Source: Steroidobacter denitrificans
Lineage (GTDB): Bacteria > Pseudomonadota > Gammaproteobacteria > Steroidobacterales > Steroidobacteraceae
Reading direction: 5' to 3'
Length of the DNA stretch: 64,000 nt
NCBI RefSeq assembly: GCF_001579945.1
Contig: NZ_CP011971.1
Coordinates: 2,382,001-2,446,000 of the forward strand
Shown: piece by piece, positions 48,168-64,000 of the stretch
Position numbering within the stretch: the stretch's first letter is position 1
Layout of the letters: the number at the start of each line of letters is the position of its first letter
Position numbers and translations under genes: made by a program
The notes under the pieces: model-generated
What the model saw: only the letters and a program-made list of their open reading frames with translations
The model's database searches: none
What the model was told of the DNA's origin: nothing

Positions 48168-49703
48168 TCAGGCGTTCTGCAGCCTGATATCGCTCAATTC
48201 ACAGATGGCTTTCAGCAGGGCGGTCGTATCGACCGGCTTGCTCAGAAAGCGGCAATTCGCCGGCTGGGGATCGACGCGGCGCAATACCGATTGCAGATCT
48301 CCGCTGAGGATGATGCCGGGCACATTGCGCCCGGACTGCTCGCGCAGTGCAAACAGCACATCCAGCCCCGTATGCCGGTCTTCCAGATGATAATCCACGA
48401 TCACCACGTCATCGGAACGCAGCGGGGAGAACAGCATCTGCGCCTCCGCCGCCGAGCTAGTGCTCAGCACCTCGTAGCCTTCGAGCTTGAGAAACAGCTC
48501 CGTTGCGACGCGTACCCCCTCATTATCTTCCACCAGCAGGAGCCGCTCCCGGCGATGGGCGTCGGGATCGCCGGCGGCCAGCGCAGCGGCCTGCGCGGCG
48601 GTGGAACGGACCACGATCTGGCGGCTCGGAATCCTGATGCGCGCCTGGGTGCCCTCCCCCAGCTGGGAAGTGATGCGTACCGAGAAACCCAGCAGGCGTG
48701 CCACTTCCTTGACGATCGCCAGGCCCAGGCCCACACCCATGCGCTTCATGCCATGAGTATCCACTTGATAATACTCGTCGAAGATCCGCTCCAGCTTGTC
48801 CTTGGGAATACCCACGCCGGAATCCTCGACACTGATGGTGAGCGCATCCGCAGTCGATGAACAGGCCACGCTCACAGTGCCTTCGTCGGTATACTTCAGG
48901 GCATTGCCGAGCAGATTCTGCAGCAACTGATAGAACAGGATCCGATCGGTGGAAACGACCAGATCGGTAGCCTGGAAATGTAGATCGATACGGCGTGTTC
49001 TGGCGATCGAAGCAAACTCCGTGCGCAGCTCCTCGAACACCTTTGCCAGCGGAACATCCGCAATATTCGGCCGGATCGCGCCCGACTCCAGGCGGCTGAT
49101 ATCCAGCAGGGCGTTCAACAGACGCACCATGTTCTCGATGGCCTGCCCTTGCTGCTGCAGCAGCTCGCGCACGTCCGGCTGTGGGACCATCTTCTGCATC
49201 GCCATGTTGAGCAGGCGTATCGTCTGCATGGGCTGGCGCAAATCATGGCTGGCAGTTGCCAGGAAGCGGCTTTTGGCTCGATTGGCCCGATCGGCCTCCT
49301 CGCGCGCCGCGACCAGCGCCTCGTTGAATTCCCGGCGTTCCGTAACGTCGCGGATCGCGGCAGCGACGAACGACCGATCCTTGACACGAATGGGTGCAAG
49401 CCGAATGGCCACCGCGAATTCGCTGCCGTCCGCTCGGCGCGCAAACTGGTCGCCGACCTGCGCGCCCATATCCCGGCTTTCCGGTTCGCGCACATAGCGG
49501 TCGACATGCGAAATATGGCGTTCTCGCAGGCGCTCCGGAATCAGCAAACTCAAGGATCTACCGATCAGCTCACTGGGCCGATAACCCAGCAGGCTGGTGA
49601 CCGTCTCATTCGCAAAACGAATCAAACCGCCATCGTCCACGACGATCAAGGCGTCTGGTGAAAAGCGCAACAAATGCTCGTTGATGGCGTCGAGATATTC
49701 CAT
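48168..49703 (-). CDS. PAS-histidine kinase-receiver hybrid
   Basis: The 511-residue cytoplasmic protein has a PAS domain (about 5-130, FSPDALIVVDDGGLIRFAN), a HisKA helix with the histidine in FLATASHDLRQPMQTIRLL and a HATPase (NLLGNALKY, DSGVGIP, GVGLGLAIVKE). A C-terminal receiver follows (about 385-505, LLLVEDNEG, Asp in VVIVDYHLE, Lys in FLSKPVD). The S-H-D-L-R-Q-P histidine box is the subclass seen in hybrids that sense through PAS and signal to LuxR-type regulators. It diverges from the FixL/FixJ-like pair, so cross-talk is likely. Confidence 0.9.
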   Translation of the reverse strand: MEYLDAINEHLLRFSPDALIVVDDGGLIRFANETVTSLLGYRPSELIGRSLSLLIPERLRERHISHVDRYVREPESRDMGAQVGDQFARRADGSEFAVAIRLAPIRVKDRSFVAAAIRDVTERREFNEALVAAREEADRANRAKSRFLATASHDLRQPMQTIRLLNMAMQKMVPQPDVRELLQQQGQAIENMVRLLNALLDISRLESGAIRPNIADVPLAKVFEELRTEFASIARTRRIDLHFQATDLVVSTDRILFYQLLQNLLGNALKYTDEGTVSVACSSTADALTISVEDSGVGIPKDKLERIFDEYYQVDTHGMKRMGVGLGLAIVKEVARLLGFSVRITSQLGEGTQARIRIPSRQIVVRSTAAQAAALAAGDPDAHRRERLLLVEDNEGVRVATELFLKLEGYEVLSTSSAAEAQMLFSPLRSDDVVIVDYHLEDRHTGLDVLFALREQSGRNVPGIILSGDLQSVLRRVDPQPANCRFLSKPVDTTALLKAICELSDIRLQNA

Positions 49704-49910
49704 ATCCAGTGGTCAATGCTAACGCACATCGGCACTATACGCTCTTCCAAAGTCTCCGCTACGGGACGGGCGCAACGGATTGAGTGGATTTCTCGGGTTC
49801 CCCGCCGTCTGCGCTTGATGCAGGCTACGTCGGATACCCGGCGCCGAAAACCGGGTGGATTCCGTATGGCGGCAGCCGGCGCATACCTCCGTCTCGACGA
49901 TCAAGCGTGA

Positions 49911-49927
49911 GATAATTGACTATTATC
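49911..49927. promoter_or_regulatory. Perfect inverted repeat before the FixL/FixJ-like operon
   Basis: GATAATTGACTATTATC is a perfect palindrome with six-base arms and a five-base centre, 14 bp upstream of the kinase GTG start. The rest of the 237-bp divergent region shows no other clear element. Its position would let a bound protein block translation initiation or a promoter. Confidence 0.5.
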
Positions 49928-49940
49928 GCTCGGAAAGGCA

Positions 49941-50732
49941 GTGACGATACACGATTCCATAATCGACGAACGGACCGACAGGCAGACTGCGCGAATGCTC
50001 GAGCAGCTCATGCAGATTGCCAAGATGTCTGCGCTGGAAGAAATGGCCAGCGGGATTGCTCACGAGCTGAACCAGCCCATCGGTGCCATTGCCACGTTCG
50101 CCCAGGCCGCCGAACGCATGCTGTCCAAGCCGCAGGCCGATCCGGAGCCCATACTGGACGTCCTGCGTCATATCAGCAGCGAGGCGATGAATGCCGGCCA
50201 GGGCATCCACCGCATTCGCAAACTGTTCGACGGTTACGGCGCAGAGCGCTCGAACTGTGATATCGCGGAAATCATCGCTGAACTCGCCCCCGTCCTCCAA
50301 CTGCTGGCTCAGCGAGCCGGTGTCCAGCTGAAAATCTCCGTCGATGCCACGCTGCCGCGAATTTCCGTCGATCGCTTGCGCATTCAGCATGTGCTGTTCG
50401 CGCTGGTGCAGAACGCGCTGGAAGCCATCACATCCGATATCACCGCTCCGCAGGTATGTCTCGATATCAGCGGCGATCGCCATTACGTGACCACGGCCGT
50501 CATCGATCATGGCACTGGTGTCTCCAAGGAGGCTCGCCCTCAGCTGTTTCGCCCCTTCTTCACGACCAAGATCACCGGAACGGGGCTAGGCCTGGCCTCG
50601 GCGCGCGCGATTGTGGAAATGCATGATGGTACGATCGGCTTCGATCAGCTCGAAGATGGCGGCACGCGGTTCTGGTTTCGTCTACCCGCGGCCAATGCGA
50701 TGGACTCGGCACCAGAAGCGACACCGGCCTGA
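49941..50732 (+). CDS. FixL/TtrS-like histidine kinase core without a sensor domain
   Basis: This 263-residue protein consists of a short coiled N-terminus (about 1-25), a HisKA helix with MASGIAHELNQPIGAIATF and a HATPase (N box VQNALEAIT, DHGTGVS, TGTGLGLASARAIVE). FixL and relatives carry PAS or haem sensors in front of this core; here none is present, so the signal must come from a partner, perhaps the divergent PAS hybrid. It starts with GTG at 49941 after GGAAAGG. The FixJ-like regulator follows after 56 bp. Confidence 0.9.
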   Translation: MTIHDSIIDERTDRQTARMLEQLMQIAKMSALEEMASGIAHELNQPIGAIATFAQAAERMLSKPQADPEPILDVLRHISSEAMNAGQGIHRIRKLFDGYGAERSNCDIAEIIAELAPVLQLLAQRAGVQLKISVDATLPRISVDRLRIQHVLFALVQNALEAITSDITAPQVCLDISGDRHYVTTAVIDHGTGVSKEARPQLFRPFFTTKITGTGLGLASARAIVEMHDGTIGFDQLEDGGTRFWFRLPAANAMDSAPEATPA

Positions 50733-50788
50733 TTCCGGTCGACAGCATCGATGGCACCCGGCAGGGACCTGCTCGGCAAGGAAATTCC

Positions 50789-51460
50789 ATGCAGAATGAC
50801 AAAGCAGCGAAAGGTCCAAAAGATAAAAAAGACAACGATCGGCAAGGCAAGGAAAAGAACGCCGTCATCTATGTCGTCGATGACGACGACGGCATGCGCC
50901 GTGCCCTGAGCGTACTCATGATGACCGTGGGCTACCGCTCGATAGCTTTCCCACGCCCCGAGGAATTTCTGGAAAAGTATGACCCCGGACAGCCCGGCTG
51001 CCTGGTCCTGGATGTACGGATGCCCGAAATGAGTGGACTGGAAGTCCAACAGCACCTCAATCGTATGGGCGCCATGATTCCGATCATCCTGGTGACGGGC
51101 CATGGCGACATTCCCATGGCCGTGCAGGCCATGAAAGATGGCGCTTTCGACTTCCTGCAAAAGCCGTTTCGCGATCAGGATCTGCTCGATCGCATCAATG
51201 GCGCGCTCAAGCTCGACGCCAAGAATCGCGCCAGCGTGGAAAAGCACGCCGAGCTCAAACAGCGAGCCGAATCGCTCACGCCGCGCGAACGCGAAGTCAT
51301 GAGCCGGGTGGTCGACGGGCAGGCCAATAAGGTCATCGCTATCGATCTCGGACTCAGCGAGCGCACCGTGGAAATCCACCGGGCCAATGTCATGGACAAG
51401 ATGGGGGCACGTTCTATCGCCCATCTCGTGAGAATGCATCTGACGCTCCACGGAGAATGA
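50789..51460 (+). CDS. FixJ-family response regulator
   Basis: This 223-residue protein has a lysine-rich charged N-terminal tail (about 1-24) and a receiver (VIYVVDDDDGMRRAL, phospho-Asp in CLVLDVRMPEMSGLE, ILVTGHGDIPMAVQAMKDGAFDFLQKPF split over residues 101-128). A LuxR/GerE helix-turn-helix follows (LTPREREVMSRVVDGQ, SERTVEIHRANVMDKM). FixJ-type regulators often control microaerobic genes. The 3' end overlaps the oppositely oriented AckA-PduL gene by 47 bp. Confidence 0.93.
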   Translation: MQNDKAAKGPKDKKDNDRQGKEKNAVIYVVDDDDGMRRALSVLMMTVGYRSIAFPRPEEFLEKYDPGQPGCLVLDVRMPEMSGLEVQQHLNRMGAMIPIILVTGHGDIPMAVQAMKDGAFDFLQKPFRDQDLLDRINGALKLDAKNRASVEKHAELKQRAESLTPREREVMSRVVDGQANKVIAIDLGLSERTVEIHRANVMDKMGARSIAHLVRMHLTLHGE

Positions 51461-53249
51461 GCTCCCCCTCATCGCCTTGCTTGACGCCGGCTGCGTTCGC
51501 TTCATCCGTGTCCAGATGCATCTCCAGGTTGAAATCCGGCGAGACGCGCACCATGACGTCGCCGAATATCAGATCCCGCCCGTCGGTGTCCAATTTGACC
51601 TGAACCGTATCGCAGTCCCGCACACCAAAAAGAGCGGCATCCTCAGGACTCATATGGATATGCCGGCGCGCACTGATGAGGCCGTTCGGCAAGGTGACGC
51701 GTCCTCGAGGACCTTCGAGCGTGATGCCCGGCGTATTGAGCAGGTCGCCCGAGATGCGGACCGGCGCATCGACACCCAAGGTGAATTCATCGGTTCGTGA
51801 TATCTCGATCTGGTCATGCACGCGCGGCGGACCCAGGACGCGTACACCGTCGATGCGGCCCCCAGGACCGATCAAGGCAACGGACTCCTGCGCGGCGAAC
51901 TGCCCCGGTTGCGACAGGGCCGCCCGCTGCCGCAGCACATATCCTGGACCGAACAGCCGATCGATCGTCGCCTGCGACAAATGCGCATGACGTGCCGAAA
52001 TGGCGACCGGAATACGCGCCGACGCCATGCCGGTGGCGCGATCCGCATCGCGGCGAGCCAGAAGCTCTGCCGCATCCCCGGCGATCGCCGATTCCTCATC
52101 CGCGCGCACGACCAGCAGGCGGGTTCGTGAATATTCCTCTGAAATGCACGCCACGCCAAATTCATCGAACCCGGCATCCCGGTTCGCATCCTCGTCCAGG
52201 ACAGCTCCCAGAAAATCCAGCCGCTGCATGCATCGATGACGCACCAGGGCGCTGTTTTCCCCGACCCCGCCTGTGAACGCGATGACCTCGACGCCGCCCA
52301 TTACTGCGGCGTAGGCACCGATGTACTTGCGAATGCGATGCGCATAGAGCGTGATCGCCAACCGGCAGTGCTCATCGCCGCGCGCTGCACGCCGCTCGAT
52401 TTCACGCATGTCGTTGGTGCCGGTCAGCCCGGTCAGCCCGGCGCGGGAATTCAACAGTTCATCGAGCGCGGACGCATCGAAGCCTGCCGATTGCAGCAGA
52501 TGCAACAATACGCCGGGATCGATATCGCCGCAGCGCGTCCCCATCACCAGGCCTTCCAGCGGTGTCATGCCCATGCTCGTCTCGACACTGCGGCCATATT
52601 CGATCGCCGCCACGCTGGCCCCGTTGCCCAGATGACAGGAAATGATGCGCAGTTCCTGTGGCGTCGCGTTCATATGAACGCATGCCGCCGACAATACATG
52701 CGCGTGACTGGTGCCATGGAATCCGTAACGCCGGATACCGAAGCGTTCGGTCACCTCCCGCGGCAGTGCATATTCACGTGCGCGCGGCGGCAGGGTCGCA
52801 TGAAACGCCGTATCGAAAACCGCCACATGGGGCAACTCCGGCAGCAGTTCACGGCAGATACGAATCGCCGCCGCCGCGGGCGGATTGTGCAAGGGCGCAA
52901 GTGCGGCTATCGAATCCAGCGTACTCAGCGAAGTTTCGTCGATCAGCGTCGGCCGCACCAGTTCGCCGCCCCCATGCACGACCCGGTGGGCGACCGCCTG
53001 CACCGTATCGCGTATGCGCGCGCGCCCGCCGGCCTGTTCCAGCAACTCGCTCACCGCGGCGCGCAGCGACAAACCCTCACACTCACGAATCTCGCCATCG
53101 CGGGTATGCACGCGGCACGATGCTCCGCCCATACCCTCTACGCGGGCATCGAACATCCGCCGCGCATGCGCACCGACCGACCTCGGCTCGACCTCGATCA
53201 ACGCCATTTTCACCGATGAACTGCCGCAATTCAGCGCGAGAACGAGCAT
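51414..53249 (-). CDS. Acetate kinase fused to a PduL-type phosphotransacylase
   Basis: The 611-residue protein joins two enzymes. Residues 1 to about 395 are acetate kinase: ALNCGSSSVKM, YGFHGTSHAHVL, CHLGNGASVA and GGVGENSALVR. Residues about 412-611 are a complete PduL phosphate acyltransferase with both beta-barrel halves and the zinc/CoA-site motifs VAISARHAHLS, SARRHIHMSPEDA and LEMHLDTDEANAAG. Together they would turn acetyl- or propionyl-CoA into the acid with ATP formation, or the reverse, without releasing acyl phosphate. These are normally separate genes. The ATG at 53249 has GGAG seven bases upstream. It lies 39 bp after pncB, probably in one operon. Confidence 0.93.
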   Translation of the reverse strand: MLVLALNCGSSSVKMALIEVEPRSVGAHARRMFDARVEGMGGASCRVHTRDGEIRECEGLSLRAAVSELLEQAGGRARIRDTVQAVAHRVVHGGGELVRPTLIDETSLSTLDSIAALAPLHNPPAAAAIRICRELLPELPHVAVFDTAFHATLPPRAREYALPREVTERFGIRRYGFHGTSHAHVLSAACVHMNATPQELRIISCHLGNGASVAAIEYGRSVETSMGMTPLEGLVMGTRCGDIDPGVLLHLLQSAGFDASALDELLNSRAGLTGLTGTNDMREIERRAARGDEHCRLAITLYAHRIRKYIGAYAAVMGGVEVIAFTGGVGENSALVRHRCMQRLDFLGAVLDEDANRDAGFDEFGVACISEEYSRTRLLVVRADEESAIAGDAAELLARRDADRATGMASARIPVAISARHAHLSQATIDRLFGPGYVLRQRAALSQPGQFAAQESVALIGPGGRIDGVRVLGPPRVHDQIEISRTDEFTLGVDAPVRISGDLLNTPGITLEGPRGRVTLPNGLISARRHIHMSPEDAALFGVRDCDTVQVKLDTDGRDLIFGDVMVRVSPDFNLEMHLDTDEANAAGVKQGDEGELILRGASDAFSRDGR

Positions 53250-53288
53250 AGTGTCTCCATGATGCAAACCGAAGGCCGAACCGCGTCG

Positions 53289-54668
53289 TCAGGTCGGACG
53301 TCGGTCGCACTGCACCGCCAGGTCGTGCTGCCTCGCGGACACCTTGACCGGAGAATGACAGCCTCGTTCCAGCCCCCGCAGCACCAGCGGCAGGCTTGCG
53401 AGTTCCTCGGCGCAGTGCCGCCGCACCTGCTTCAACGAGGGAGAGGGAGTGGTACGCCGACCGTTCACCATGACTTCCCGCAGCAAGGCCCTGCCTTCCA
53501 TGACTTCATCGGCGCAGGCCAGAACATCCATGCCGATACGGCCACGAGGATCGTATTGCCGATAGACCTGGCGGGGGCCCGGCCAGCTCTCCTTCCATTG
53601 AGAGCGCTTGCGGGAAGGCCGGTCTGCGTACTGTTGCAGCGTGTAGACGCAGTCAAGCGCGGGTGCGTCCATCGAGACGCTCAAGCGGGTTCCGACGTAA
53701 TAGGCATCGATCGGCGCACGGGCCGCCTGCAGTGTTTCGATGGCGTGCTCATCGAGATCACCGCTGACGAATATGCGCACATCGCTGCATTCGTTGCGAT
53801 CCAGGATCTCGCGCACCCGCCGGGTCTCCAGCGCCAGTTCGCCGCTGTCGATACGCACAGCCTCGACACGCCCTCCCGCGGCACGCAATTCGCGCGCCAA
53901 CGCCGCCGCACGCAGTGCGCCACGCGTGATGTCATAGGTATCGATGAGCACGACCAGATCCTGCGGCCGATACGCGGTAAAGTTACGGAAAGCCTGCGCT
54001 TCCAGGTCATGCGCCTGCACGAAGGAATGCGCCATGGTGCTCGAAATCGGTATGCCGAACAGTCGCGCAGCCTCGACGTTCGAGGTGGCATCGAAGCCGG
54101 CGATATAGCTGGCACGGCTCCCATGGATCGCAGCTTGCGCACCATGCGAGCGCCGCAGTCCGAAGTCGATCAGCATGCTGTGCGGTGCCGCCAGCCGGCA
54201 GCGGGCCGCTTTGGAGGCGACCAGTATCGGATGATGCATCAAATTGATGATGCGGCTTTCCACGAATTGCGCCTCAGGCAGCGGCGCCACGATCCGCAAT
54301 AACGGTTCGCTGGCGAAAAATACCGTTCCCTCCGGCATGGCGAATACATTGCCCGTGAAGCGAAAGTGCTCCAGGCGGGCCAGCAGCTCATCGCTGAAGC
54401 GTTGCGTGGAGGCCAGCCAGTCGAGTTCCTGCGGTGTGAAGCGCAACGACTCCAGATAATCGAGCGCCAGCTCCAGGCCCGCGGCAACCATGAAATTCCG
54501 GGTATCGCGCTGGCGTCTGACAAAGAACTCGAAAACGCCGATCCGCTCCATGCCCAGCCGATAATAGGCATCCAGCATGGTGAGCTGGTACAAATCGGTG
54601 AGCAATGCGCCGACCCCGGATGTCTGCGTGCGGACCGGTTCGCGTCTCGTCGCTGATCGCCGGCTCAT
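53289..54668 (-). CDS. pncB: Nicotinate phosphoribosyltransferase
   Basis: This enzyme makes nicotinate mononucleotide from nicotinate and PRPP in NAD salvage. The roughly 459-residue protein begins with LLTDLYQLTMLDAYYRLGM and has FEFFVRR, FRFTGNVFAMPEG, RRSHGAQAA, STMAHSFV, LIDTYDI and VRIDSGELALE. The ATG at 54668 gives a normal start; the open frame upstream to 54929 has no homology. The subgroup resembles mycobacterial PncB2 as much as E. coli PncB, judging only by general features. It sits between hsp20 (100 bp) and ackA-pduL (39 bp). Confidence 0.93.
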   Translation of the reverse strand: MSRRSATRREPVRTQTSGVGALLTDLYQLTMLDAYYRLGMERIGVFEFFVRRQRDTRNFMVAAGLELALDYLESLRFTPQELDWLASTQRFSDELLARLEHFRFTGNVFAMPEGTVFFASEPLLRIVAPLPEAQFVESRIINLMHHPILVASKAARCRLAAPHSMLIDFGLRRSHGAQAAIHGSRASYIAGFDATSNVEAARLFGIPISSTMAHSFVQAHDLEAQAFRNFTAYRPQDLVVLIDTYDITRGALRAAALARELRAAGGRVEAVRIDSGELALETRRVREILDRNECSDVRIFVSGDLDEHAIETLQAARAPIDAYYVGTRLSVSMDAPALDCVYTLQQYADRPSRKRSQWKESWPGPRQVYRQYDPRGRIGMDVLACADEVMEGRALLREVMVNGRRTTPSPSLKQVRRHCAEELASLPLVLRGLERGCHSPVKVSARQHDLAVQCDRRPT

Positions 54669-54768
54669 GCGCCTGACCCTCGAATTGCCATGTGTCCGAC
54701 GAGGCCGCCAGGCCGACCCGCATCGGTATCGCATCGGGCAGGTGCCGCCTGCCCGGTGCGAAGGACGC

Positions 54769-55206
54769 TCACTTGACTTCGATAGAGACCGGCTTTCGCT
54801 GGGTCGGCTCCTTTTTGGGAATGCGCACCCGCAGTACGCCGTCCTTGGATTCGGCCTGAATGCCCTCGGTATCGATATCATCCGGCAGGGCAAAGCTGCG
54901 CGAAAACTTCCCATAGGAAGTTTCGACACGAATCTCGTTCTCTTCCTTGTACTCTTTTTCGCGACGGCGCTCCCCGGTGACGGTGATCACCCCGTTATCC
55001 AGGGAAATCTTCACATCCTCCTTCTTGACCTCCGGCAGATCAGCCTTGATCACATATTCCTTGTCCGTTTCACTGATATCGGCCAGCGGCGTCCAATCCA
55101 TTCCATAGGCGCCACGGCGCAGGCCACGACCACGGCCGAAGAAGGGAGAATAGTCCCGCAGCATCTGATCGAACTCACGAAACGGTTCCCAACGCGTAAC
55201 GTTCAT
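54769..55206 (-). CDS. Hsp20 / alpha-crystallin small heat-shock protein
   Basis: This 145-residue holdase has an alpha-crystallin domain (about residues 38-135) with ADLPEVKKEDVKISLDNGVITVTGERR split around 55-82, SYGKFSRSFALPDDID and the conserved GVLRVRIPK, followed by a short polar tail. The ATG at 55206 has AGGAG eight bases upstream. It precedes pncB and ackA-pduL in the same direction. A 26-bp inverted repeat lies 28-53 bp upstream of its start. Confidence 0.95.
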   Translation of the reverse strand: MNVTRWEPFREFDQMLRDYSPFFGRGRGLRRGAYGMDWTPLADISETDKEYVIKADLPEVKKEDVKISLDNGVITVTGERRREKEYKEENEIRVETSYGKFSRSFALPDDIDTEGIQAESKDGVLRVRIPKKEPTQRKPVSIEVK

Positions 55207-55233
55207 TGCGCTCTCCTGAATCGGTTGATCGAC

Positions 55234-55385: not shown

Positions 55386-56441
55386 TCATTCCCCGCGCGA
55401 ACGTGCGCCGTTGTGCGTATGTGCCCGAAGGCCCCGGCGCGTCAATATCTCCCAGGCTTCCTCGGCGGATTCGGCGAAGTCGAACAACGCCAGATCAGCG
55501 GCTGAAACCATGCCTTCTTCGACCAGGACGTCGAAATTGACCAGACTGCGCCAATAAGCCTGGTCGACGAGCACGATGGGAACGGACGGCGCCTTGCTGG
55601 TCTGGCACAAGGTCAGGATTTCGAACAATTCATCCATGGTGCCGAAGCCGCCCGGAAAAATGGCCAGCGCATTGGCCCGCATCGCCAGGTGCATTTTGCG
55701 CATCGCGAAATAATGAAACTGGAAAGTCAATGCCGGCGTACTGTAGGCATTCGGAATCTGCTCCTGGGGCAGAGTGATATTGAAACCGATCGTGGGGGCG
55801 CCCGCCTCCCGTGCGCCGCGATTGGCTGCTTCCATGATGCCGGGGCCGCCCCCGGTGGCGATCACGTTGTCGCGCCAGCGGTGCTGAGGCGCAAGCGCGC
55901 CGCCGCGCTCGGAAGCGATCCGCCCGAACTCCCGTGCCGCCTCGTACCAACGTGCCTGGCGTTGCCAGCGGGCGGCGATTTTCCGTTCCTGTTCGTCACG
56001 GGCTGCCGCGACCGCTGCCTGCGCCTCTTGCTGGCTGCGTACGCGCGCGCTGCCGAACACGATGATGGTCGAGCGTATGCCCCAGTCTTTCAGCAGGAGA
56101 TCGGCCTTGGCGTACTCCAGCGCAAAGCGCGTCGCCCGCATTTCGTCGCGCAGCAGAAATTCGGTGTCCTGCACCGGCAGCAAGTAGCTGGGCGAGCACA
56201 GCTGCTGACGGCTATCGGGCGGCGTTCCCATCGCCAACGGCTCGGCGCAAACGCCCTGAGCGCCGGCGCCGTGATCGACGCCTGCCTTGCCGAAAAACGA
56301 CTGTCCGCCAGGCTGCTCCGGGTCAAGTAATTCCTGAGCAGGCTGCCCCTGAACGGATTGATCCTGGACAGATTGATTCCGATCAGGCGCTCGGGTATCC
56401 GGATGCTGCGGGGAAACGGGTCGAGTGGGTCTCTGGCTCAT
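55386..56441 (-). CDS. LOG family protein (TIGR00730-type, putative nucleotide phosphoribohydrolase)
   Basis: This roughly 351-residue protein has a C-terminal LOG domain (about 120-340) with VFGSARV, ATGGGPGIMEAANRGA and the signature PGGFGTMDELFEILT. Members cleave nucleoside 5'-monophosphates to base and ribose phosphate, and some make cytokinins; older annotations call them lysine decarboxylases. The first 100 residues are glutamine- and proline-rich (QSVQDQSVQGQPAQELL) and look disordered. The ATG at 56441 is chosen because homology ends well downstream. It lies 179 bp before hsp20 on the same strand and diverges from hpf. Confidence 0.85.
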   Translation of the reverse strand: MSQRPTRPVSPQHPDTRAPDRNQSVQDQSVQGQPAQELLDPEQPGGQSFFGKAGVDHGAGAQGVCAEPLAMGTPPDSRQQLCSPSYLLPVQDTEFLLRDEMRATRFALEYAKADLLLKDWGIRSTIIVFGSARVRSQQEAQAAVAAARDEQERKIAARWQRQARWYEAAREFGRIASERGGALAPQHRWRDNVIATGGGPGIMEAANRGAREAGAPTIGFNITLPQEQIPNAYSTPALTFQFHYFAMRKMHLAMRANALAIFPGGFGTMDELFEILTLCQTSKAPSVPIVLVDQAYWRSLVNFDVLVEEGMVSAADLALFDFAESAEEAWEILTRRGLRAHTHNGARSRGE

Positions 56442-56720: not shown

Positions 56721-57044
56721 ATGCAAAGCCCTCTACGCCTTACGTTTCGTCACGTGGACCGCTCGCCGGCTCTGGAAGCCCGGGTACATGATTTGATCGG
56801 TCGCCTGGAAAAATTTCATGATCGCATCACTGCCTGTCATGTCGTCATAGAAGCGCCCAATGCGCGCCCGGGCAAGGGGCGCCCCTTCGATGTCAGCATC
56901 GAACTGGCGATTCCCGGCGGCTTCATTCACGCCCATGGCACCCACGGCAATGCGAACGAAGGCCACGCGGACGTCTATGCTGCATTGAGCGACGCTTTCG
57001 ACAGCGCCAGGCGGCAATTGCAAAACGCCGACCCGACGCACTGA
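56721..57044 (+). CDS. Short HPF/RaiA ribosome-hibernation factor
   Basis: This 107-residue protein resembles the S30EA/HPF N-terminal domain (LRLTFRHVDRSPALEARVHDLIGRLEKFH at residues 5-33, then CHVVIEAPN and FDVSIELAIPGG), which binds the small ribosomal subunit and silences it in resting cells. It lacks the dimerising C-terminal domain of long HPF. It is a single gene between the divergent LOG gene and the convergent metallo-hydrolase. A TAGGAG ribosome site lies about a dozen bases upstream of the ATG. Confidence 0.82.
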   Translation: MQSPLRLTFRHVDRSPALEARVHDLIGRLEKFHDRITACHVVIEAPNARPGKGRPFDVSIELAIPGGFIHAHGTHGNANEGHADVYAALSDAFDSARRQLQNADPTH

Positions 57045-57163
57045 CGAATCGGTCTGCGGATATGGACCTCACCTCCCAGGTTTCATGCCCGCAGTGATCA
57101 TCCTGGCGAACCGTCCTTGGATCCGCGGGCAGCCCGCTTCCCAGAGCCCCGCTCGATGGCCGG

Positions 57164-58552
57164 CTATCGGTTTGCGGGATTGCGTTCGGCCGCGGGTCCG
57201 AGCACGACCGAATCGCGATATTCCGGAACGCTGACGGACCAGCCCAACTCCCGCTTGATGCGCACCCGCAATGCCTCGCTGGCCGAAGGTTCCCCATGGG
57301 TGATGAACGTATGTTTCGGGGCCCGCGGCAGCTTGCGCATCCAGGCGATGAGTTCATCGGCGTCCGCATGCCCCGACATGGAGCTCAATTGCATGACCTG
57401 GGCGTTGATCGGCACGTCCTGGCCATGGATGCGGATCGTTTTCGCCCCGCCGATCATGGCTGCGCCGCGCGTGCCGCCCGCCTGATAGCCGGCGAACAGA
57501 ATCAGGTTGTTCGCATCCGGTGCGAACACCTTCAGATGATGGATGACCCGGCCGCCGGTCGCCATGCCGCTGCCCGCCAGGATGATCATGGGACCGCCTC
57601 GCCGATCCAGCGCCTTGGACTGCTCCACGCTGCGCACCATCCGGGTCGCCCTGAACACCTGCGCGCACTCCTCGTGGGACAATCGATGTTCGTCCGCGAA
57701 CACCCGATACAGCTGCGTCGCGTCGGTCGCCATGGGACTATCCAGGTAAATCGGCACGTCCTGAAGCGCGCCCGCCGCCTTGAGGCGGGCGATGAGCAGC
57801 ATCAACAGCTGGGCCCGCCCCACTGCAAAGGTGGGAACCACCACGACGGCGCCGCGGGCGATGGCAGTCCGTAAAATCACACCCAACTGCGCCTGTAGAT
57901 CGAGCACCTCGTGCCGGCGATCCCCGTAGGTCGATTCGATCACCAGGCAGTCCGCCGCGGGGGGAGACTGCGGCGCGTTCATGAGCGGATCGCCGCTGCG
58001 GCCCAGATCACCCGAAAAAATGATCGAATCCTGGCCGTTTTCCAGGTGTACGCTGGCTGCGCCCAGCAAGTGTCCCGCATGACAGAACCGTGCCGTCAGG
58101 CCCGCCAGCGGCTGGAACGCCTTGCCGAACCTCACGGTCTCGAATAGCTCCAGGCAGGCTTCGGCATCGGCCCGGGTATACAGCGGCAGCGCCGGCTTGT
58201 GGATCGAGTAGCCGTGACGATTAAGAAACCGCGCCTGCTCTTCCTGCAGAAAGGCACTGTCGGGCAACAGGATCCGGCACAGCTCGAAGGTCGCAGGTGT
58301 GGCAAAAATACGGCCGCGAAATCCCCGCCGCAGCAGCGCCGGAAGAAAACCGCTGTGGTCGATATGTGCATGCGTCAGCACCACAGCCTCGATGGAGGAT
58401 GCTGCGAACGGCAGTTCCGACCAGTTTTTCAGGCGTAGCTGCTTGTAGCCCTGATATAGGCCGCAATCGACCAGCATCCGCCGTTCATCGCATTCCAGCA
58501 GATAGCGCGAGCCGGTCACCGTGCCCGTAGCCCCGAAGAATCCCAGCCTCAT
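57164..58552 (-). CDS. Metallo-beta-lactamase/beta-CASP RNA metallo-hydrolase family protein
   Basis: This 462-residue protein has the zinc motif LTHAHIDHSGFLP, CHAGHLLGAASV and FSGDLGRSGDP. The beta-CASP region follows with VVVPTFAVGRAQ, IILAGSGMATGGRVIHHL and the C-terminal SGHADADELIAW and ITHGEPSAS histidines. This is the CPSF/YSH1-like group, usually called MBL-fold exo- or endo-RNase. RNA turnover would suit its survival-gene neighbours, but the substrate is unproven. The start at 58552 has GAGG eight bases upstream; a second ATG at 58567 is possible. A minus-strand terminator sits 14 bp upstream of the start. Confidence 0.9.
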   Translation of the reverse strand: MRLGFFGATGTVTGSRYLLECDERRMLVDCGLYQGYKQLRLKNWSELPFAASSIEAVVLTHAHIDHSGFLPALLRRGFRGRIFATPATFELCRILLPDSAFLQEEQARFLNRHGYSIHKPALPLYTRADAEACLELFETVRFGKAFQPLAGLTARFCHAGHLLGAASVHLENGQDSIIFSGDLGRSGDPLMNAPQSPPAADCLVIESTYGDRRHEVLDLQAQLGVILRTAIARGAVVVVPTFAVGRAQLLMLLIARLKAAGALQDVPIYLDSPMATDATQLYRVFADEHRLSHEECAQVFRATRMVRSVEQSKALDRRGGPMIILAGSGMATGGRVIHHLKVFAPDANNLILFAGYQAGGTRGAAMIGGAKTIRIHGQDVPINAQVMQLSSMSGHADADELIAWMRKLPRAPKHTFITHGEPSASEALRVRIKRELGWSVSVPEYRDSVVLGPAAERNPANR

Positions 58553-58565
58553 CGTTCGACCTCGC

Positions 58566-58601
58566 ATAAAAAAGAACCCCCCGTGCCTGGGCGCGGAGGG
58601 T
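58566..58601 (-). terminator. Intrinsic terminator on the minus strand, with no gene ending at it
   Basis: On the minus strand a GC-rich stem of 12 pairs (58601-58590 with 58587-58576, one mismatch and one G-U pair) is followed by TTCTTTTTT. It lies between hemN (plus) and the metallo-hydrolase start (58552, minus), so no annotated gene ends here. It may end a small RNA transcribed leftwards from about 58.6-58.75 kb, or act as an attenuator in the metallo-hydrolase leader. Confidence 0.75.
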
Positions 58602-58810
58602 CGATGGGGATCCATGAAGTCACGAGCGCGAATGCTCATCGGAACAAAACGGGGCGTATGGCGCCATGCGAATTGCCCGTAGCCCGACCCCGGTATTCAC
58701 CACGATCGCTATCGTACCAGGGCGTTGCCTGCGGATCCGAATATGTCTAGCATGCATGTGAAGGCCCACCGGTTGCGCCCCTTCCGCCGGCAGACACGCC
58801 GCAGCTGCTG

Positions 58811-58824
58811 CTGATCCAGATCAT
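58811..58824. promoter_or_regulatory. FNR-like box upstream of hemN
   Basis: CTGATCCAGATCAT has the full TGAT-N4-ATCA FNR core and the CCAG spacer. Its centre plus 41.5 gives a transcript start at 58859, with CATACT at 58848-58853 as the -10. The predicted start falls on the hemN ATG at 58859. Confidence 0.55.
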
Positions 58825-58858
58825 GGCGAAGGAAACGCATCGCAATGCATACTGGGTC

Positions 58859-60268
58859 ATGAGCGTCTTTCCCTCCCCTTCATTCGACTCGGAGCTGTTG
58901 CGCCGTTACGATCGACCGGGGCCGCGCTATACCTCCTATCCGGCCGCACCCCGATTTCGAACGGATTTCAGCGAAGCCGACCTGCGCGAACATGCCGGCC
59001 GCAGCAACGCCGATCCCATTCCACGCCAGCTGTCGCTGTATCTGCATATCCCCTACTGTCTCAGCCCCTGTTTCTACTGCGGCTGCAACCGCATCATCAC
59101 CCGCGATCGGACCAAGGGCAGCCGGTACGTGGAACGCCTGATCCGCGAAGTCGAAGCAATGGGCAAGCTATTCGACCGTGATCGCGACGTCATCCAGGTG
59201 CACCTGGGCGGCGGCACCCCCAATTTCCTGGGCGTGGATGAACTGCGGGAACTGCTCGAGAGCGCCGGCCGGCACTTTCATTTCAGCCTGGCGCCAAACC
59301 GGGATTTCTCCATCGAGATCGATCCGCGGTTCGTCACGCCGGAGGACATCGCCGGCTATGCGCAACTCGGCCTGAACCGCGCCAGCCTGGGCGTGCAGGA
59401 CTTCGACCCGCAGGTACAAGAAGCGGTCAATCGTATCCAGAGCGTCGAGCAGACTCTGCAGGTCATCGAGGCCTGCCGTGCGAACGGACTGCGCTCCATC
59501 AACGTGGACTTGATCTACGGGCTGCCCAAGCAGACCCTCGAAGGATTCGGCCGCACCCTGGACACCGTGATCGAAGCGCGGCCGGACCGCCTGGCCGTGT
59601 ACGGCTATGCCCATCTCCCGGAGCTGTTCAAGCCGCAGCAGCGCATCGACGCCGCCGAACTGCCGACGCCGGATACGCGCCTGCGGCTGCTGCAGCTGGC
59701 CATCGACAAGCTCTCCGCCGCCGGTTATCACTACATCGGGATGGATCATTTCGCGCTGCCCGGTGACGATCTGGCGCAGGCTCAGGAGGCCGGCACCCTG
59801 CATCGTAATTTCATGGGCTATACGACCCATGCCGACAGCGATCTGATTGCCATGGGCATGAGCGCCATCAGCCATATCGGTGACAGCTTCAGTCAGAACC
59901 CTCGCGATCTGGCCGGCTGGGAAATCGCCCTGGATCACGGACGGCTGCCCGTCTGGCGTGGTCTGCATCTGGATGCCGACGACCTGTTGCGAGCCGACAT
60001 CATCCAGCAGCTCATGTGCCAGGGCACGATCGACATCGCCGCGATCGAAAAACGTCATGGTATCGATTTCCAGGACTATTTCAGCGAATCTCTCGCACAA
60101 TTGCACGGTCCCATCGACGACGGGCTGGTCGAGATGGATCGGCAGAGGATCACCGCCACTTCGCGCGGCAGGCTGCTGTTGCGTATCATTGCCATGTGCT
60201 TCGACCGCTATCTCACCCAGACGCCCCCCCCCGACGCCGTGAAACCGCGATTCTCGCGCGTCATCTGA
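58859..60268 (+). CDS. hemN: Oxygen-independent coproporphyrinogen III oxidase (radical SAM)
   Basis: HemN decarboxylates coproporphyrinogen III without oxygen, in haem synthesis. The roughly 469-residue protein has the N-terminal YDRPGPRYTSYP, the radical-SAM cluster motif C-x3-C-x2-C in HIPYCLSPCFYCGC, then HLGGGTPNFL and the HemN-type C-terminal domain. Two ATG starts are possible: 58823, which would lie inside the FNR-like box, and 58859, which coincides with the predicted transcript start. Neither has a ribosome site directly before it. I prefer 58859. The second fnr-type gene follows 94 bp downstream. Confidence 0.95.
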   Translation: MSVFPSPSFDSELLRRYDRPGPRYTSYPAAPRFRTDFSEADLREHAGRSNADPIPRQLSLYLHIPYCLSPCFYCGCNRIITRDRTKGSRYVERLIREVEAMGKLFDRDRDVIQVHLGGGTPNFLGVDELRELLESAGRHFHFSLAPNRDFSIEIDPRFVTPEDIAGYAQLGLNRASLGVQDFDPQVQEAVNRIQSVEQTLQVIEACRANGLRSINVDLIYGLPKQTLEGFGRTLDTVIEARPDRLAVYGYAHLPELFKPQQRIDAAELPTPDTRLRLLQLAIDKLSAAGYHYIGMDHFALPGDDLAQAQEAGTLHRNFMGYTTHADSDLIAMGMSAISHIGDSFSQNPRDLAGWEIALDHGRLPVWRGLHLDADDLLRADIIQQLMCQGTIDIAAIEKRHGIDFQDYFSESLAQLHGPIDDGLVEMDRQRITATSRGRLLLRIIAMCFDRYLTQTPPPDAVKPRFSRVI

Positions 60269-60331
60269 CCGCCGCCGGGAATGCCCGGCAGCACCACACG
60301 GCGGCGCCCGGCATCCGCATGCGGCGTCATC

Positions 60332-60345
60332 TGTACCTGGATCAC
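60332..60345. promoter_or_regulatory. Weak FNR-like site before the second fnr-type gene
   Basis: Read on the minus strand it is GTGATCCAGGTACA, sharing TGATCCAGGT with the stronger boxes but with a poor right half. It lies only 18 bp from the start codon, so it would fit repression rather than activation. Tentative. Confidence 0.3.
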
Positions 60346-60362
60346 CACATAGGGAGTCTCGC

Positions 60363-61133
60363 ATGAGGGCGCTGCCCAGCCGCCTGTCGCGCATACCTGC
60401 CGTCGGGAGCGACGAGCCGATGCCTGCGGATGGAAACGAGTACAACTTTTGCGACACCTGCACCTTCTCGCGTACCTGCCTGCAAAGCGGCTACGACAAG
60501 GGCCGGCTGCGCGATCTGCATGTATTGATCGACCACGTAGGTCCTTTCCGGGAAGGCGAACACCTGTTCCGGGAAGGCGATCCTTTCACCGCCATCGCCG
60601 CCGTGCGCGCCGGTGTAGTCAAGACCTACGTCAACGATGCCGATGGGCGCGAACAGGTACAGGGATTCTTTCTGCCCGGCGAGATCGTCGGCCTGAGCGC
60701 CATCTCGCATGACCGCTATCCCTGCAATGCGGTGGCCCTGGATACCGTCCAGCTGTGCCGCTTCTCGTTTCCGGACATCGCCGCGCTGGCGACCCGCATA
60801 CCCAGCCTGCAGCAACAGCTGTTCCGGCTGCTCAGCCAGGATATCGGCAAGGCGACGCTGCTGGCCGGCAACTATTCCGCCGACGAGCGCATGGCGGCAT
60901 TCCTGGTGTCGCTCTCGCGCCGCTACGCCGCCCGCGGCGGCAACCCCGACCGCTTTCACCTGGTGATGACCCGCACCGACATCGCCAACTACCTGCGGCT
61001 TGCCTCCGAAACCGTCAGCCGCGTTTTTCGGCGCTTCCAGGACGAAGGACTCATTCAGGTCGACCGGCGCGATCTAAGATTGCTGAACCTGTCCCGGCTG
61101 GAAACCCTGGCGCGCAGCGTGCTGAGGGAATGA
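60363..61133 (+). CDS. Second FNR/ANR-type regulator
   Basis: This 256-residue CRP/FNR protein has cysteines C-x2-C-x5-C at residues 30, 33 and 39 (NFCDTCTFSRTCLQ) and a later cysteine in QLCRFSFPD as the fourth candidate cluster ligand. The barrel includes QGFFLPGEIVGLSAI and the DNA-reading helix is TRTDIANYLRLASETVSRVF with E-x2-SR. The ATG at 60363 has GGGAG seven bases upstream. It is closely related in design to the regulator at 6946; the region between barrel and helix-turn-helix differs. The gene order hemN-fnr-nnrS is common in denitrifiers. Confidence 0.93.
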   Translation: MRALPSRLSRIPAVGSDEPMPADGNEYNFCDTCTFSRTCLQSGYDKGRLRDLHVLIDHVGPFREGEHLFREGDPFTAIAAVRAGVVKTYVNDADGREQVQGFFLPGEIVGLSAISHDRYPCNAVALDTVQLCRFSFPDIAALATRIPSLQQQLFRLLSQDIGKATLLAGNYSADERMAAFLVSLSRRYAARGGNPDRFHLVMTRTDIANYLRLASETVSRVFRRFQDEGLIQVDRRDLRLLNLSRLETLARSVLRE

Positions 61134-61139
61134 TCCCCG

Positions 61140-61153
61140 CTGACCTGGATCAG
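61140..61153. promoter_or_regulatory. FNR/DNR-like box upstream of nnrS
   Basis: CTGACCTGGATCAG (reverse CTGATCCAGGTCAG) keeps the TGAT/GTCA core with the CCAG spacer. Its centre plus 41.5 predicts a start near 61188, with CAGGAT as a poor -10 at 61176-61181. nnrS starts at 61252. Confidence 0.5.
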
Positions 61154-61251
61154 GGTGGCACCGGAATACCGGTGGCAGGATCGCCGGCACCGCCTGGCGC
61201 ATGAATTCGTCCGCACGCGACGCTGACGCGCCGCCGAATCAGGAGCCCTCG

Positions 61252-62496
61252 ATGTCCGCCCCCGATGCCGCCTTGCCCGCCTTACCCGCCGGCGTCTTGC
61301 GTCAAGTGGCTGCCGCGCCGCATCGTCTGTTGTTTTTCGTGGGGGCTACGAATGTATTGCTGGCCATGTGCTGGTGGGCCGTATGGCTCGCCGGTATGCG
61401 CTGGCTGCCGGCCGGCGTAGTGCAACCACCGGTTCCTGCGGGCTGGTTGCATGCGATGTTGATGCAGTATCAGGTACTGCCGGCATTCATGTTCGGATTT
61501 CTGCTGACCGTCTTTCCCCGCTGGATGAATCAGCCGGAGCTCGGCCGCCGGCACTATATGCCGGTCGCTGTGGGCATGCTGGGAGGCCAGGTGCTGACGC
61601 TGGCGGGCCTGTTCGGCGGTATGACGCTGCTGCAACTCGGCGCCGCGTCCACGACGGCCGGCTGGGCGATCGGAACCTTCATCCTGGCACGCCTGGTATG
61701 GATCGACCAGGGCCGTACCTGGCATGCGGTGAGCTGTCTGGCCGCACTCATTTTCGGCCTGCTCGGCCTGGGGCTGTACAACACCTACCTGCTGAATCTC
61801 GATGCGCGCTCTTTGTTCACCGCCATCAAGCTCGGCAGCATGGTCGTACTGCTGCCGATCTTCCTGACCATATGCCATCGCATGATACCCTTCTTCGCCA
61901 GCATGGCGCTCCAGGGCGGCTACCGTGTCGTGCGGCCGATGTGGGTCCTGGCCGCAGCATGGGCCCTGCTGCTGACCCATACCTGGATGGAACTGCGGCA
62001 TGCCTACGCCTGGCTATGGTGGGTCGATCTGCCGTTTGCGGTGCTGAGCGGCGGACTTTTATGGGCATGGTGGCCACGCAGGCAGGCCATGCCGGCACTG
62101 TTGCGCGTGCTGTTCGTCGGCTTCACCTGGCTGCCGATCGCATTCTTGCTGTACAGCGCCCAAAGTCTATGGTTCTGGCTGAACGGCGAATTCATCCTGG
62201 GACGCGCGCCGGCACATGCCTTGTTCGTAGGCTGCTTCGGCAGCCTGCTCGTGGCGATGGTCACCCGGGTCACACAGGGTCATGCAGGCCGGCCGCTGAT
62301 CCTGGGGAATATCGCCGCGTTCACCTTCATTTTCATTCAGGCAGTGGTGCTGGTGCGCATGCTCGGCGAGATCCTGCCCGACGCAATGGCATGGCAGGCG
62401 ATGGCGGCTTGGGGCTGGGTCCTGGCGTTCTTGCCGTGGGTGCTGCGTTCAGCCTGGCTTTATCTGACCCCGCGCGCCGACGGCCGCCCCGGCTAA
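61252..62496 (+). CDS. nnrS: NnrS family haem-copper membrane protein
   Basis: NnrS is a multi-pass inner-membrane protein with haem and copper. It is induced by nitric oxide in denitrifiers and is linked to protection from nitrosative stress. The roughly 414-residue protein has about 12 hydrophobic segments and conserved histidines in AAPHRLLFFVGA, ICHRMIPFF, LTHTWMELRH, and TRVTQGHAGRPL. I chose the ATG at 61252, which has AGGAG seven bases upstream, over the ATG at 61201. The box at 61140-61153 fits control by the neighbouring FNR homologue. Confidence 0.92.
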   Translation: MSAPDAALPALPAGVLRQVAAAPHRLLFFVGATNVLLAMCWWAVWLAGMRWLPAGVVQPPVPAGWLHAMLMQYQVLPAFMFGFLLTVFPRWMNQPELGRRHYMPVAVGMLGGQVLTLAGLFGGMTLLQLGAASTTAGWAIGTFILARLVWIDQGRTWHAVSCLAALIFGLLGLGLYNTYLLNLDARSLFTAIKLGSMVVLLPIFLTICHRMIPFFASMALQGGYRVVRPMWVLAAAWALLLTHTWMELRHAYAWLWWVDLPFAVLSGGLLWAWWPRRQAMPALLRVLFVGFTWLPIAFLLYSAQSLWFWLNGEFILGRAPAHALFVGCFGSLLVAMVTRVTQGHAGRPLILGNIAAFTFIFIQAVVLVRMLGEILPDAMAWQAMAAWGWVLAFLPWVLRSAWLYLTPRADGRPG

Positions 62497-62530
62497 GAAT
62501 CTCCGGCTGAGAATCCTTTGGAGGATATGC

Positions 62531-62929
62531 ATGGCGTTGATCGAGTTCTATCCACACATCCGCAGCGTGCACATCGCCTCGATCCTGGCCAGCGGCGCAC
62601 TGTTTCTGGTGCGCGGGGCAGCACTGCAAGCCGGCGCTCGTTGGGTGATGGTCGCGCCGTTACGCTATCTCAGCTATGCGATCGACACGGTGCTGCTCGC
62701 CAGCGCCATTGTACTGTGCGTGATCCTGGGGCAATACCCGATCGCACAAGACTGGCTGACCGCCAAAGTAGTACTGATGCTGGCCTACATCGTCCTTGGC
62801 AGCTACGGGCTCAAGCGCGGCCGCACGCGCGCCACACGCATGGGATTTTGGCTGGCTGCGCTGGCCGTCTATGCCTTGATCATCAGTATCGCCCGCACCC
62901 GCAATCCCCTGGGTGTGTTCGCGATGTAA
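62531..62929 (+). CDS. SirB2-family small membrane protein
   Basis: This 132-residue protein has four hydrophobic helices and the SirB2 pattern: IEFYPHIRSVHIASILASGALFLVRG split over residues 4-29, YAIDTVLLASAIVL and LTAKVVLMLAYIVLGSYGLKR. The histidines HIRSVH in the first helix are conserved. SirB was first named as an invasion regulator, but the molecular function is unknown. It follows nnrS by 34 bp with GGAGG before the ATG, so it is probably in the same operon. Confidence 0.85.
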   Translation: MALIEFYPHIRSVHIASILASGALFLVRGAALQAGARWVMVAPLRYLSYAIDTVLLASAIVLCVILGQYPIAQDWLTAKVVLMLAYIVLGSYGLKRGRTRATRMGFWLAALAVYALIISIARTRNPLGVFAM

Positions 62930-63005
62930 CCGCCGCCTTTATGCCCTGGCCCGCACCGCAATCCTTTCCTTGGGTCGTGCCCTGCGGACGGCAGGATTTC
63001 CCAAG

Positions 63006-64000
63006 CTATGGTTTCACGGTCTTGCGGTCCGATGATGCCTCCGCCTGCAGATTCACGATCCTCGCCGCCACGCGCGCCGCGGCCCCGGGGGCACGCGTAT
63101 CGACCTCGATGACGGCCCCCCGCTCGAACTCGGCGAACGGCTCCCAGGCATGTACCTGCCGGAGCATCACCGCCTCATCGGCTTCCGAGGCATCCTTGCC
63201 CGCGCGCTGACGCGCCGATAGCCGCCGGCCGAGTTCCTCCGCCGGCGCCACGCAATGCAGCAATACCAGGGGCACATCGAGTTCGTCCGCGAGCGCGCTG
63301 AATCGGTGCCGCTCGGCCTGCTTCAAAAACGCGGCGTCGACGATGACGCTCTGGCCGGCACGCAACTGCTCGCCGGCCAGATGCAGCAGGCGTTCATAGA
63401 CACGATCATTGAACGCCGAAGTATAGATATCGATCCCCGCCTGTAGCGACGACTGGTCGGCCTGCAATCCCGCCATACGCTTTCGTTCCACGTCGGAGCG
63501 GATGCGGATCGCGCCCGCTGCGGCCATCACCCGTTCGCTCAGCCACGTTTTCCCGGAGCCCGACAGGCCGCAGGTCAACACCAGAACCGCGCGCGAGCCC
63601 TGGACCAAGATCCGTGCCGCGTCCAGGTAGCGGCGAGCTTCGCCCGGCTCGCCGCCCAATAACAGCACCTTGACCCGCACCAGCGCACGATGCACGAAAA
63701 AATAGCCCAGCAGCCCGATCGCCTCATAATCGCCGGCCCTCTCGAGCCAGCCGTTCAGGAATGCATAAGCCAGATCACGACGGCCCCGGGCGACCAGATC
63801 CATGAACAAAAAGGCGGCGTCATCCAGCACATCGATACGCCGCAGGGAAATATCGAATTCCAGGCAATCGAAGGCGGTCAGGCGTCCCTCGAAGCGCACC
63901 ACATTCCCGACATGCAGGTCACCATGACACTCACGGACACGACCCAGTGCCGCCCGCCGCTCCAGCGCGGCGGCGCAGCCCGCTGCCCAATCCCGCAGCC
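63006..64000 (-). CDS. APH-like/AAA kinase fusion, 5' end cut by window edge
   Basis: The minus-strand frame is open at base 64000 and stops at 63006, giving at least 331 residues. The visible N-terminal part has an aminoglycoside-phosphotransferase-like catalytic stretch ECHGDLHVGNV and the metal-binding AFDCLEFD. The C-terminal part is a P-loop kinase (zeta-toxin/AAA_33 type) with Walker A TCGLSGSGKTWLSE and SVIVDAAFLKQAERHRF. Fusions of this shape, about 500 residues long, include Rv2004c of the mycobacterial DosR regulon (from memory). The substrate is unknown. Confidence 0.85.
   Translation of the reverse strand, partial: LRDWAAGCAAALERRAALGRVRECHGDLHVGNVVRFEGRLTAFDCLEFDISLRRIDVLDDAAFLFMDLVARGRRDLAYAFLNGWLERAGDYEAIGLLGYFFVHRALVRVKVLLLGGEPGEARRYLDAARILVQGSRAVLVLTCGLSGSGKTWLSERVMAAAGAIRIRSDVERKRMAGLQADQSSLQAGIDIYTSAFNDRVYERLLHLAGEQLRAGQSVIVDAAFLKQAERHRFSALADELDVPLVLLHCVAPAEELGRRLSARQRAGKDASEADEAVMLRQVHAWEPFAEFERGAVIEVDTRAPGAAARVAARIVNLQAEASSDRKTVKP

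Follow-up and report, generated by a model that had tools for sequence, protein, structure and literature searches.

Does the run of survival genes beside a FixL/FixJ-like pair in Steroidobacter denitrificans form a hypoxic dormancy regulon like that of DosR in Mycobacterium tuberculosis, with the FixJ-like protein in control, as the initial annotation of this DNA had proposed? The locus was analysed within a window of 64,000 nucleotides, positions 2382001-2446000 of the 3.467-Mb genome, which is assembled as one contig, and the genes in question occupy its right end (from position 48168; hereafter the island). The island is best explained, at a probability of roughly 0.55, as a low-oxygen and energy-stress neighbourhood around hemN-fnr-nnrS, ccoI-type genes and a FixJ-type signalling module, which comprises a hybrid histidine kinase, a FixL-like protein and the FixJ-like regulator. 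The gene contents of the locus, the linkage of the module with genes of cytochrome cbb3 oxidase and universal stress proteins (Usp) in the order Steroidobacterales and the residue pattern of the module are direct observations; control of the survival cassette by the FixJ-like protein of the window is unproven. Specialist attention is best directed to the rewired FixL/FixJ module.

The genes were identified with Pfam and NCBIfam, and all those named in the initial annotation were recovered. Its FixL/FixJ pair stands in altered form: the FixL-like partner of FixJ lacks a PAS domain, and PAS was found instead in a separate, divergent hybrid kinase. The features are as follows, in window coordinates.

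48168..49703, minus strand: hybrid histidine kinase with PAS, HisKA, HATPase and receiver (REC) domains (Pfam), divergent from the FixL-like gene
49941..50732, plus strand: PAS-less FixL-like kinase, HisKA and HATPase (Pfam); start at 49941 or 49995
50789..51460, plus strand: FixJ-like response regulator, REC and GerE (Pfam)
about 51414..53249, minus strand: AckA-PduL fusion of acetate kinase and phosphotransacylase (Pfam)
about 53289..54629, minus strand: nicotinate phosphoribosyltransferase (NAPRT; NF006696), start approximate
about 54769..55206, minus strand: Hsp20 small heat-shock protein (Pfam, PDB); the frame extends to 55248, the ATG at 55206 being preferred
55386..56231, minus strand: LOG-family protein (TIGR00730), start approximate
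56721..57044, plus strand: short hibernation-promoting factor (HPF; S30AE, Pfam)
57164..58639, minus strand: beta-CASP protein (Pfam), nearest solved relative in PDB the ribonuclease TTHA0252
58823..60268, plus strand: HemN-type radical SAM enzyme (Pfam)
60363..61133, plus strand: FNR-type (CRP/FNR) regulator (Pfam; translation)
61201..62496, plus strand: NnrS (Pfam)
62531..62929, plus strand: SirB family protein (Pfam)
63006..64000, minus strand: APH-AAA kinase (AAA_33, Pfam), frame open past the window end to about 64824
from about 64666, beyond the window: CcoI-type ATPase gene, then a ccoS-like gene, then a DsbD_2 gene

The APH half of the AAA kinase was judged from the motif HGDLHVGN, which we take to be characteristic of that family, and the ccoS-like gene, of 86 residues, was named from its position alone. 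The 3′ ends of fixJ and ackA-pduL are convergent and overlap by 47 bp (51414-51460). NAPRT and AckA-PduL lie on the same strand with a gap of about 40 bp and may form one operon.

The module recurs within the order. At E 1e-80, 42 of the 147 genomes sampled within the order had the hybrid kinase, as did 6 of the 369 in a sample of the whole class, three of them members of the order (first match per genome, second matches being left out). FixJ (E 1e-50) lay within 5 kb of the hybrid kinase in 24 of the 42 genomes and within 13 kb in 31, and in 10 the two never shared a contig. Eighteen of the 31 loci with FixJ within 13 kb were read, the window included; the 13 others were those of genomes G125, G090, G078, G105, G046, G113, G006 and G021, all within 5 kb, and of G065, G133, G137, G072 and G056, and G070, at 36 kb, was excluded. 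Genes of cbb3 were near the module in 10 of the 18 loci, inside the 20-kb stretch in nine (G024, G091, G077, G115, G099, G118, G106, G035 and G109) and, in the window, by virtue of the ccoI-type gene some 13 kb from FixJ, the ccoNO genes of S. denitrificans itself lying far off at 588 kb. No cbb3 genes were near the module in G048, G037, G131, G139, G114, G108, G129 and G117. Usp genes were near the module in 9 of the 18 (G024, G037, G118, G106, G108, G129, G035, G117 and G109); in S. denitrificans six Usp domain matches occur across the genome and none inside the window. Among the cassette genes, beta-CASP, HPF and HemN were each near the module in three of the 18 loci, window included, and LOG, APH-AAA and AckA-PduL each in two. 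The window alone had Hsp20 and NAPRT; in G037 (stretch L125) a weak Hsp20 match (31%) lay some 14 kb away from FixJ. The locus of G024, from the same genus, carries phosphoketolase, AckA-PduL, transaldolase, SulP, two Usp, two cytochromes c, beta-CASP and ccoNO, followed by ccoI, hemN, fnr, nnrS and sirB. The low-oxygen theme recurs near the module, and the exact gene list does not. The loci read bore out the low-oxygen theme of the initial annotation, which in the window is further carried by hemN, a four-cysteine FNR gene, nnrS and the ccoI-type neighbour, and not its exact cluster, which did not recur among the 18 loci.

Such variation bears on an alternative in which house-keeping and stress genes have come to lie loosely beside a block for cbb3 biogenesis, hemN and fnr, each under its own control. 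The content of the island varies even inside the genus, the confinement of Hsp20 and NAPRT fits a loose arrangement, and neither a dyad search nor a matrix scan gave a clear common promoter motif. On the other hand, these families recur in other genera, again next to the same signalling module, and 13 other 20-kb stretches of the S. denitrificans genome searched by tblastn at 1e-8 contained no Hsp20, HPF, LOG, AckA, beta-CASP, HemN, Usp, CcoN or CcoI, phosphoketolase being matched in one of the 13. These stretches were taken at round positions; the gene panel was chosen after the islands had been seen, and the positions of the other Usp, AckA and NAPRT genes of the genome, all outside the stretches, were known when these were picked, so that the control shows clustering in this genome but is descriptive and not blind. 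We regard the loose arrangement as doubtful and the low-oxygen neighbourhood as the better account.

Within that neighbourhood, the signalling trio is the part that looks new. The FixJ-like regulator had NF006900 (FixJ) as its best NCBIfam match, at 236 bits and below the cut-off of 255, and in phmmer searches of PDB it matched 1yio, presumably StyR, at 8.5e-51, FixJ at 5.3e-45 and NarL at 5e-14. The nearest NCBIfam model of the FixL-like protein was FixL, again with a score below the cut-off. This protein consists of HisKA and HATPase only, so that haem-PAS and kinase are not joined in one protein, and it retains all ATPase motifs. The PAS domain of the hybrid kinase matched the FixL and DosP structures, and the histidine column aligned with the PAS histidine of FixL was kept in 13 of 13 hybrid kinases; we take this column to be that of the haem ligand, though haem-free PAS domains may share it and sequence does not decide haem binding. 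The trio was aligned for 13 loci with adjacent genes, the FixL-like protein of G099 being read separately from its frame. The phosphoacceptor histidine of the FixL-like proteins, the histidine, N box, G2 box and REC aspartate of the hybrid kinases and the aspartate of FixJ were each kept in 13 of 13.

What varies is the rest of the FixL-like protein. In G118, G106 and G108 it retains PAS; in the window, G024, G091, G131 and G114 it comprises HisKA and HATPase without PAS (Pfam); and four further members (G048, G037, G139 and G115) were called PAS-less from frame length or the space before the hybrid kinase, not from Pfam. In G077 (L110:10747-11358, minus strand) Pfam found HisKA only: the N, D and G2 boxes are gone and the H box AHQLNQP remains. 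The same three boxes are gone from the G099 protein, encoded between hybrid kinase and FixJ (L135), which keeps AHELNQP. In both genomes the degenerate protein stands beside an intact hybrid kinase and FixJ. Finally, family f7 supplies four loci (G035, G109, G129 and G117) where the hybrid kinase lies 1.8 to 11.8 kb from FixJ and no FixL-like gene was found beside FixJ. A small neighbour of FixJ in two of these, G035 and G109 (L189:10471-10824 and L191:8957-9277), considered as a candidate Hpt gene, proved to be DksA-like. S. denitrificans also has a second FixL-FixJ pair at about 169-171.4 kb (L120), whose kinase contains a PAS-like sequence, with glutamine apparently, by eye, where FixL has its histidine.

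Judging by this pattern, FixJ may have its lasting partner in the hybrid kinase, FixL having become dispensable as a sensor. Because a receiver-bearing hybrid kinase without Hpt needs a histidine carrier, the DHp domain of the FixL-like protein is a candidate for that carrier, and the trio may form a phosphorelay in which FixL serves as the phosphotransferase. Living genomes would then preserve the stages of its demotion: FixL with PAS, without PAS, without ATPase motifs, and not found beside FixJ. ChpT and Spo0B are histidine-kinase-like phosphotransferases; they are not known to be derived from FixL, and the window protein, unlike them, still has its ATPase motifs. No published title was found on a FixL turned phosphotransferase or on gammaproteobacterial FixLJ with hybrid kinases, in a search of titles only that is no proof of absence.

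Possible targets of the module are the cbb3 genes. Upstream DNA of ccoN and usp and of the divergent kinase promoters was used as input for expectation maximization, which returned an 18-bp palindrome, ATAcGtA-n4-TaCgTAT, with a score of 97.2, three shuffled sets scoring 40.3-40.9; examples lie upstream of ccoN in relatives (L189, L191 and L138). The matrix was trained without the S. denitrificans sequence, and the threshold of 11.7 bits corresponds to the 99% level of random 430-bp stretches of its genome. Of 78 genomes with ccoN, 9 were used for training, 61 were tested and 8 were left out (G113, at a contig end, and G129, G136, G071, G002, G090, G131 and G108). The palindrome reached 11.7 bits or more upstream of ccoN in 29 of the 61 held-out genomes; control windows inside ccoN never did (0/460), and with 200 column-permuted matrices an average of 1.5 and at most 9 of the 61 genomes did. 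The 29 positive genomes span 17 genera, 14 of them absent from the training set, and 23 of the 29 sites were centred 70-180 bp before the ccoN match start. The site of G127 contains GTAGTTTCCC complete, and other sites resemble GTAMGTAG. Both GTAGTTTCCC and GTAMGTAG are published words from systematic evolution of ligands by exponential enrichment (SELEX) with FixJ, and the site reported for FixJ of alphaproteobacteria is an imperfect palindrome of 18 bp (PMC4999443).

Considering these results, we propose the following scenario. The PAS hybrid kinase would act as the sensor, and phosphate would pass from its receiver to the histidine of the PAS-less FixL-like protein and on to FixJ. FixJ, FNR or both may then promote high-affinity respiration, and the cassette genes would serve survival once respiration fails: AckA-PduL would convert acyl-CoA to acyl phosphate and ATP, NAPRT would top up NAD, Hsp20 would hold unfolded protein, HPF would park ribosomes and the beta-CASP protein may trim RNA. 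The fuller version, in which FixL has been demoted to a phosphotransferase in the order, the hybrid kinase senses, and FixJ drives cbb3 and Usp genes through the 18-bp palindrome and gathers cassettes like AckA-PduL/NAPRT/Hsp20/HPF, is put forward as tentative, and we hold it to be less probable than the low-oxygen neighbourhood as such.

Several results weigh against this interpretation. Because the FixL-like protein of the window keeps all its ATPase motifs, it could be an independent kinase. The G077 and G099 proteins align over their full length and have a missing region in common, so that their motif losses could be a single event. The absence of a FixL-like gene beside FixJ in the four f7 loci shows that the histidine carrier is not always adjacent to FixJ. 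The ccoN box occurred in 26 of 55 FixJ-positive and also in 3 of 6 FixJ-negative genomes, two of these six being 70 and 80% complete, and is tied to FixJ by resemblance only, as FixJ-negative genomes carry it too. The best palindrome of the window scored 10.8, under the threshold and outside the island, and that upstream of the ccoN of S. denitrificans scored 7.4; with a refined matrix no island promoter stood out in S. denitrificans or G024 DNA. In 524 kb of scanned S. denitrificans DNA, palindrome matches were at chance level; a single intergenic match (L183:18276) scored 16.9, and simulations reached 19.0. A dyad search of the intergenic DNA of S. denitrificans and G024 gave no clear motif. 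The missing boxes are not due to a changed DNA-binding helix, because the FixJ recognition helix is nearly identical in S. denitrificans and its relatives. As island boxes are missing in S. denitrificans and G024 and the matches in the former are at chance, we make no claim that FixJ runs the island, and the proposal to that effect in the initial annotation finds no FixJ-type palindrome at the island promoters to support it. Furthermore, the linkage control covers the S. denitrificans genome only and not the relatives, and the island promoters tested, apart from the interval between log and hpf, carry 2-4 mismatches to the FNR box, like background.

The last result counts equally against an alternative in which the island is an anaerobic cassette driven by FNR and the FixJ module serves other genes. 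An FNR gene does lie within the island, and its product carries C30-X2-C33-X5-C39 plus C121, the arrangement C-X2-C-X5-C plus a fourth cysteine being, we assume, the FNR pattern. Among the promoters tested, the sole FNR box with one mismatch, at 56373-56386, falls between log and hpf; such a site occurs in about 1% of random 320-bp stretches. In 10 ccoN promoters FNR boxes were near background. The window holds 71 two-mismatch FNR sites, not all of them sorted by gene, where 51.9 +/- 6.6 are expected, and one of 100 shuffles reaches 71. A further contrast, 96 versus 13 among the matches listed, was discarded because the reversed-pattern control contains TAG words. Control of the cassette by FNR in place of FixJ is unlikely on this evidence.

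Far less probable still is a dormancy regulon of the DosR type under the FixJ-like protein, whether by homology or by convergence. DosS and DosT are GAF-haem sensor kinases, DosR binds a 20-bp box, its regulon is rich in Usp, and Rv2004c is an APH-AAA type kinase. The regulator of the island is nearest to 1yio and FixJ, and DosR is not listed among the 42 PDB sequences matching it at E 1e-10. By Pfam, the two kinases of the window and the FixL-like proteins of seven relatives lack GAF domains, and the consensus DosR box had no match with three or fewer mismatches in the 64 kb. With a Usp-free window and no FixJ-type box in the island, the regulator relatives, sensor domains, box and Usp content all differ from those of the M. 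tuberculosis system. The resemblance lies in the theme and in four families common to the island and the DosR list, namely Hsp20, NAPRT, a ribosome-binding factor and an Rv2004c-type kinase; HspX, PncB2, Rv0079 and Rv2004c are named for the DosR regulon (PMC11203133, PMC5309233).

Both domains of AckA-PduL are complete in one frame (Pfam Acetate_kinase 8-396, PTAC 420-596), and the fusion is present in G024, G131, G138 and further members of the class. At E 1e-110 the query found matches in 10 of the 369 class genomes, in one case to the AckA part only. As an island marker AckA-PduL failed: eight class loci outside the genus, seven with both domains, one with AckA only and several on short contigs, had no Hsp20, NAPRT or FixJ nearby in the stretches covered. 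PduL fused to acetate kinase has already been noted, with channelling proposed (PMC4784909); here the protein sits beside a FixJ module. The NAPRT (NF006696, 570 bits, cut-off 503) is a second genomic copy, the other lying at 3372481. It too failed as an island marker, as among 20 loci selected out of 55 genomes AckA was near two, HPF one, HemN one and Hsp20 none.

On its left the island is flanked by a SUF operon, a Rieske ferredoxin gene and a gene called SixA by eye. A run resembling this SUF operon, iscR-sufBDS-sufT-Rieske, occurs in G206 (L172) with a NAPRT homologue a few kb away. An AckA paralogue is located at 3034442 of the S. denitrificans genome, inside a second survival-type block (L117, 3025001-3035400) that holds beta-CASP, thymidine-phosphorylase-like, phosphoribosyl-pyrophosphate-synthetase-like and XFP-like phosphoketolase genes, a P-type ATPase and this second AckA.

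Among known systems, the lxa locus of Burkholderia cenocepacia has already been likened to DosR, with mention of FixLJ/FixK (PMC6127331), and lxa, anr2 and FixLJ have been discussed in anoxic survival (PMC9104464). Both lxa and the island are chromosomal clusters that combine a heat-shock protein (alpha-crystallin) with a member of the metallo-beta-lactamase superfamily, represented in the island by Hsp20 and an MBL-fold protein. The lxa locus is raised at low oxygen (PMC6127331, PMC9104464) and differs in comprising about 50 genes with six Usp, the FixLJ homologues of its host lying elsewhere (BCAL2210/2211). The word 'acetate' is absent from the main text of PMC6127331, 'acetate kinase' from that of PMC9104464 and 'phosphoketolase' from both. 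In theme the island would work like lxa and the DosR regulon, though probably assembled independently of them.

Rhizobial FixL-FixJ(-FixK) and the FixLJ of Burkholderia dolosa, which responds to low oxygen (PMC5234846), likewise have a FixJ regulator beside a FixL-type kinase; in the window, by contrast, PAS is absent from the FixL-like protein and belongs to a separate hybrid kinase linked to FixJ. Among multi-step oxygen relays, the closest found in the literature is NmpRSTU of Myxococcus xanthus, which also uses a hybrid kinase and whose regulon includes cbb3, HemN and Usp (PMC11841059), but its output regulator is NtrC-like and the haem-dependent kinase NmpU starts the relay. The hFixL-FxkR system of Rhizobium etli resembles the trio in placing a hybrid FixL variant in a low-oxygen cascade and differs in that FxkR replaces FixJ and recognizes another binding motif (PMC4999443).

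If the proposed relay is true, a textbook oxygen sensor would have been reduced to a phosphate carrier, sensing having passed to a neighbour, with the intermediates preserved, and the origin of phosphotransferases such as ChpT would become directly testable. The predicted ccoN box, found in held-out genomes of 17 genera, would extend FixJ-cbb3 control to a gammaproteobacterial order. The cassette adds a further case in which genes for a chaperone, ribosome parking, NAD salvage and substrate-level ATP formation lie close to low-oxygen regulators in unrelated bacteria.

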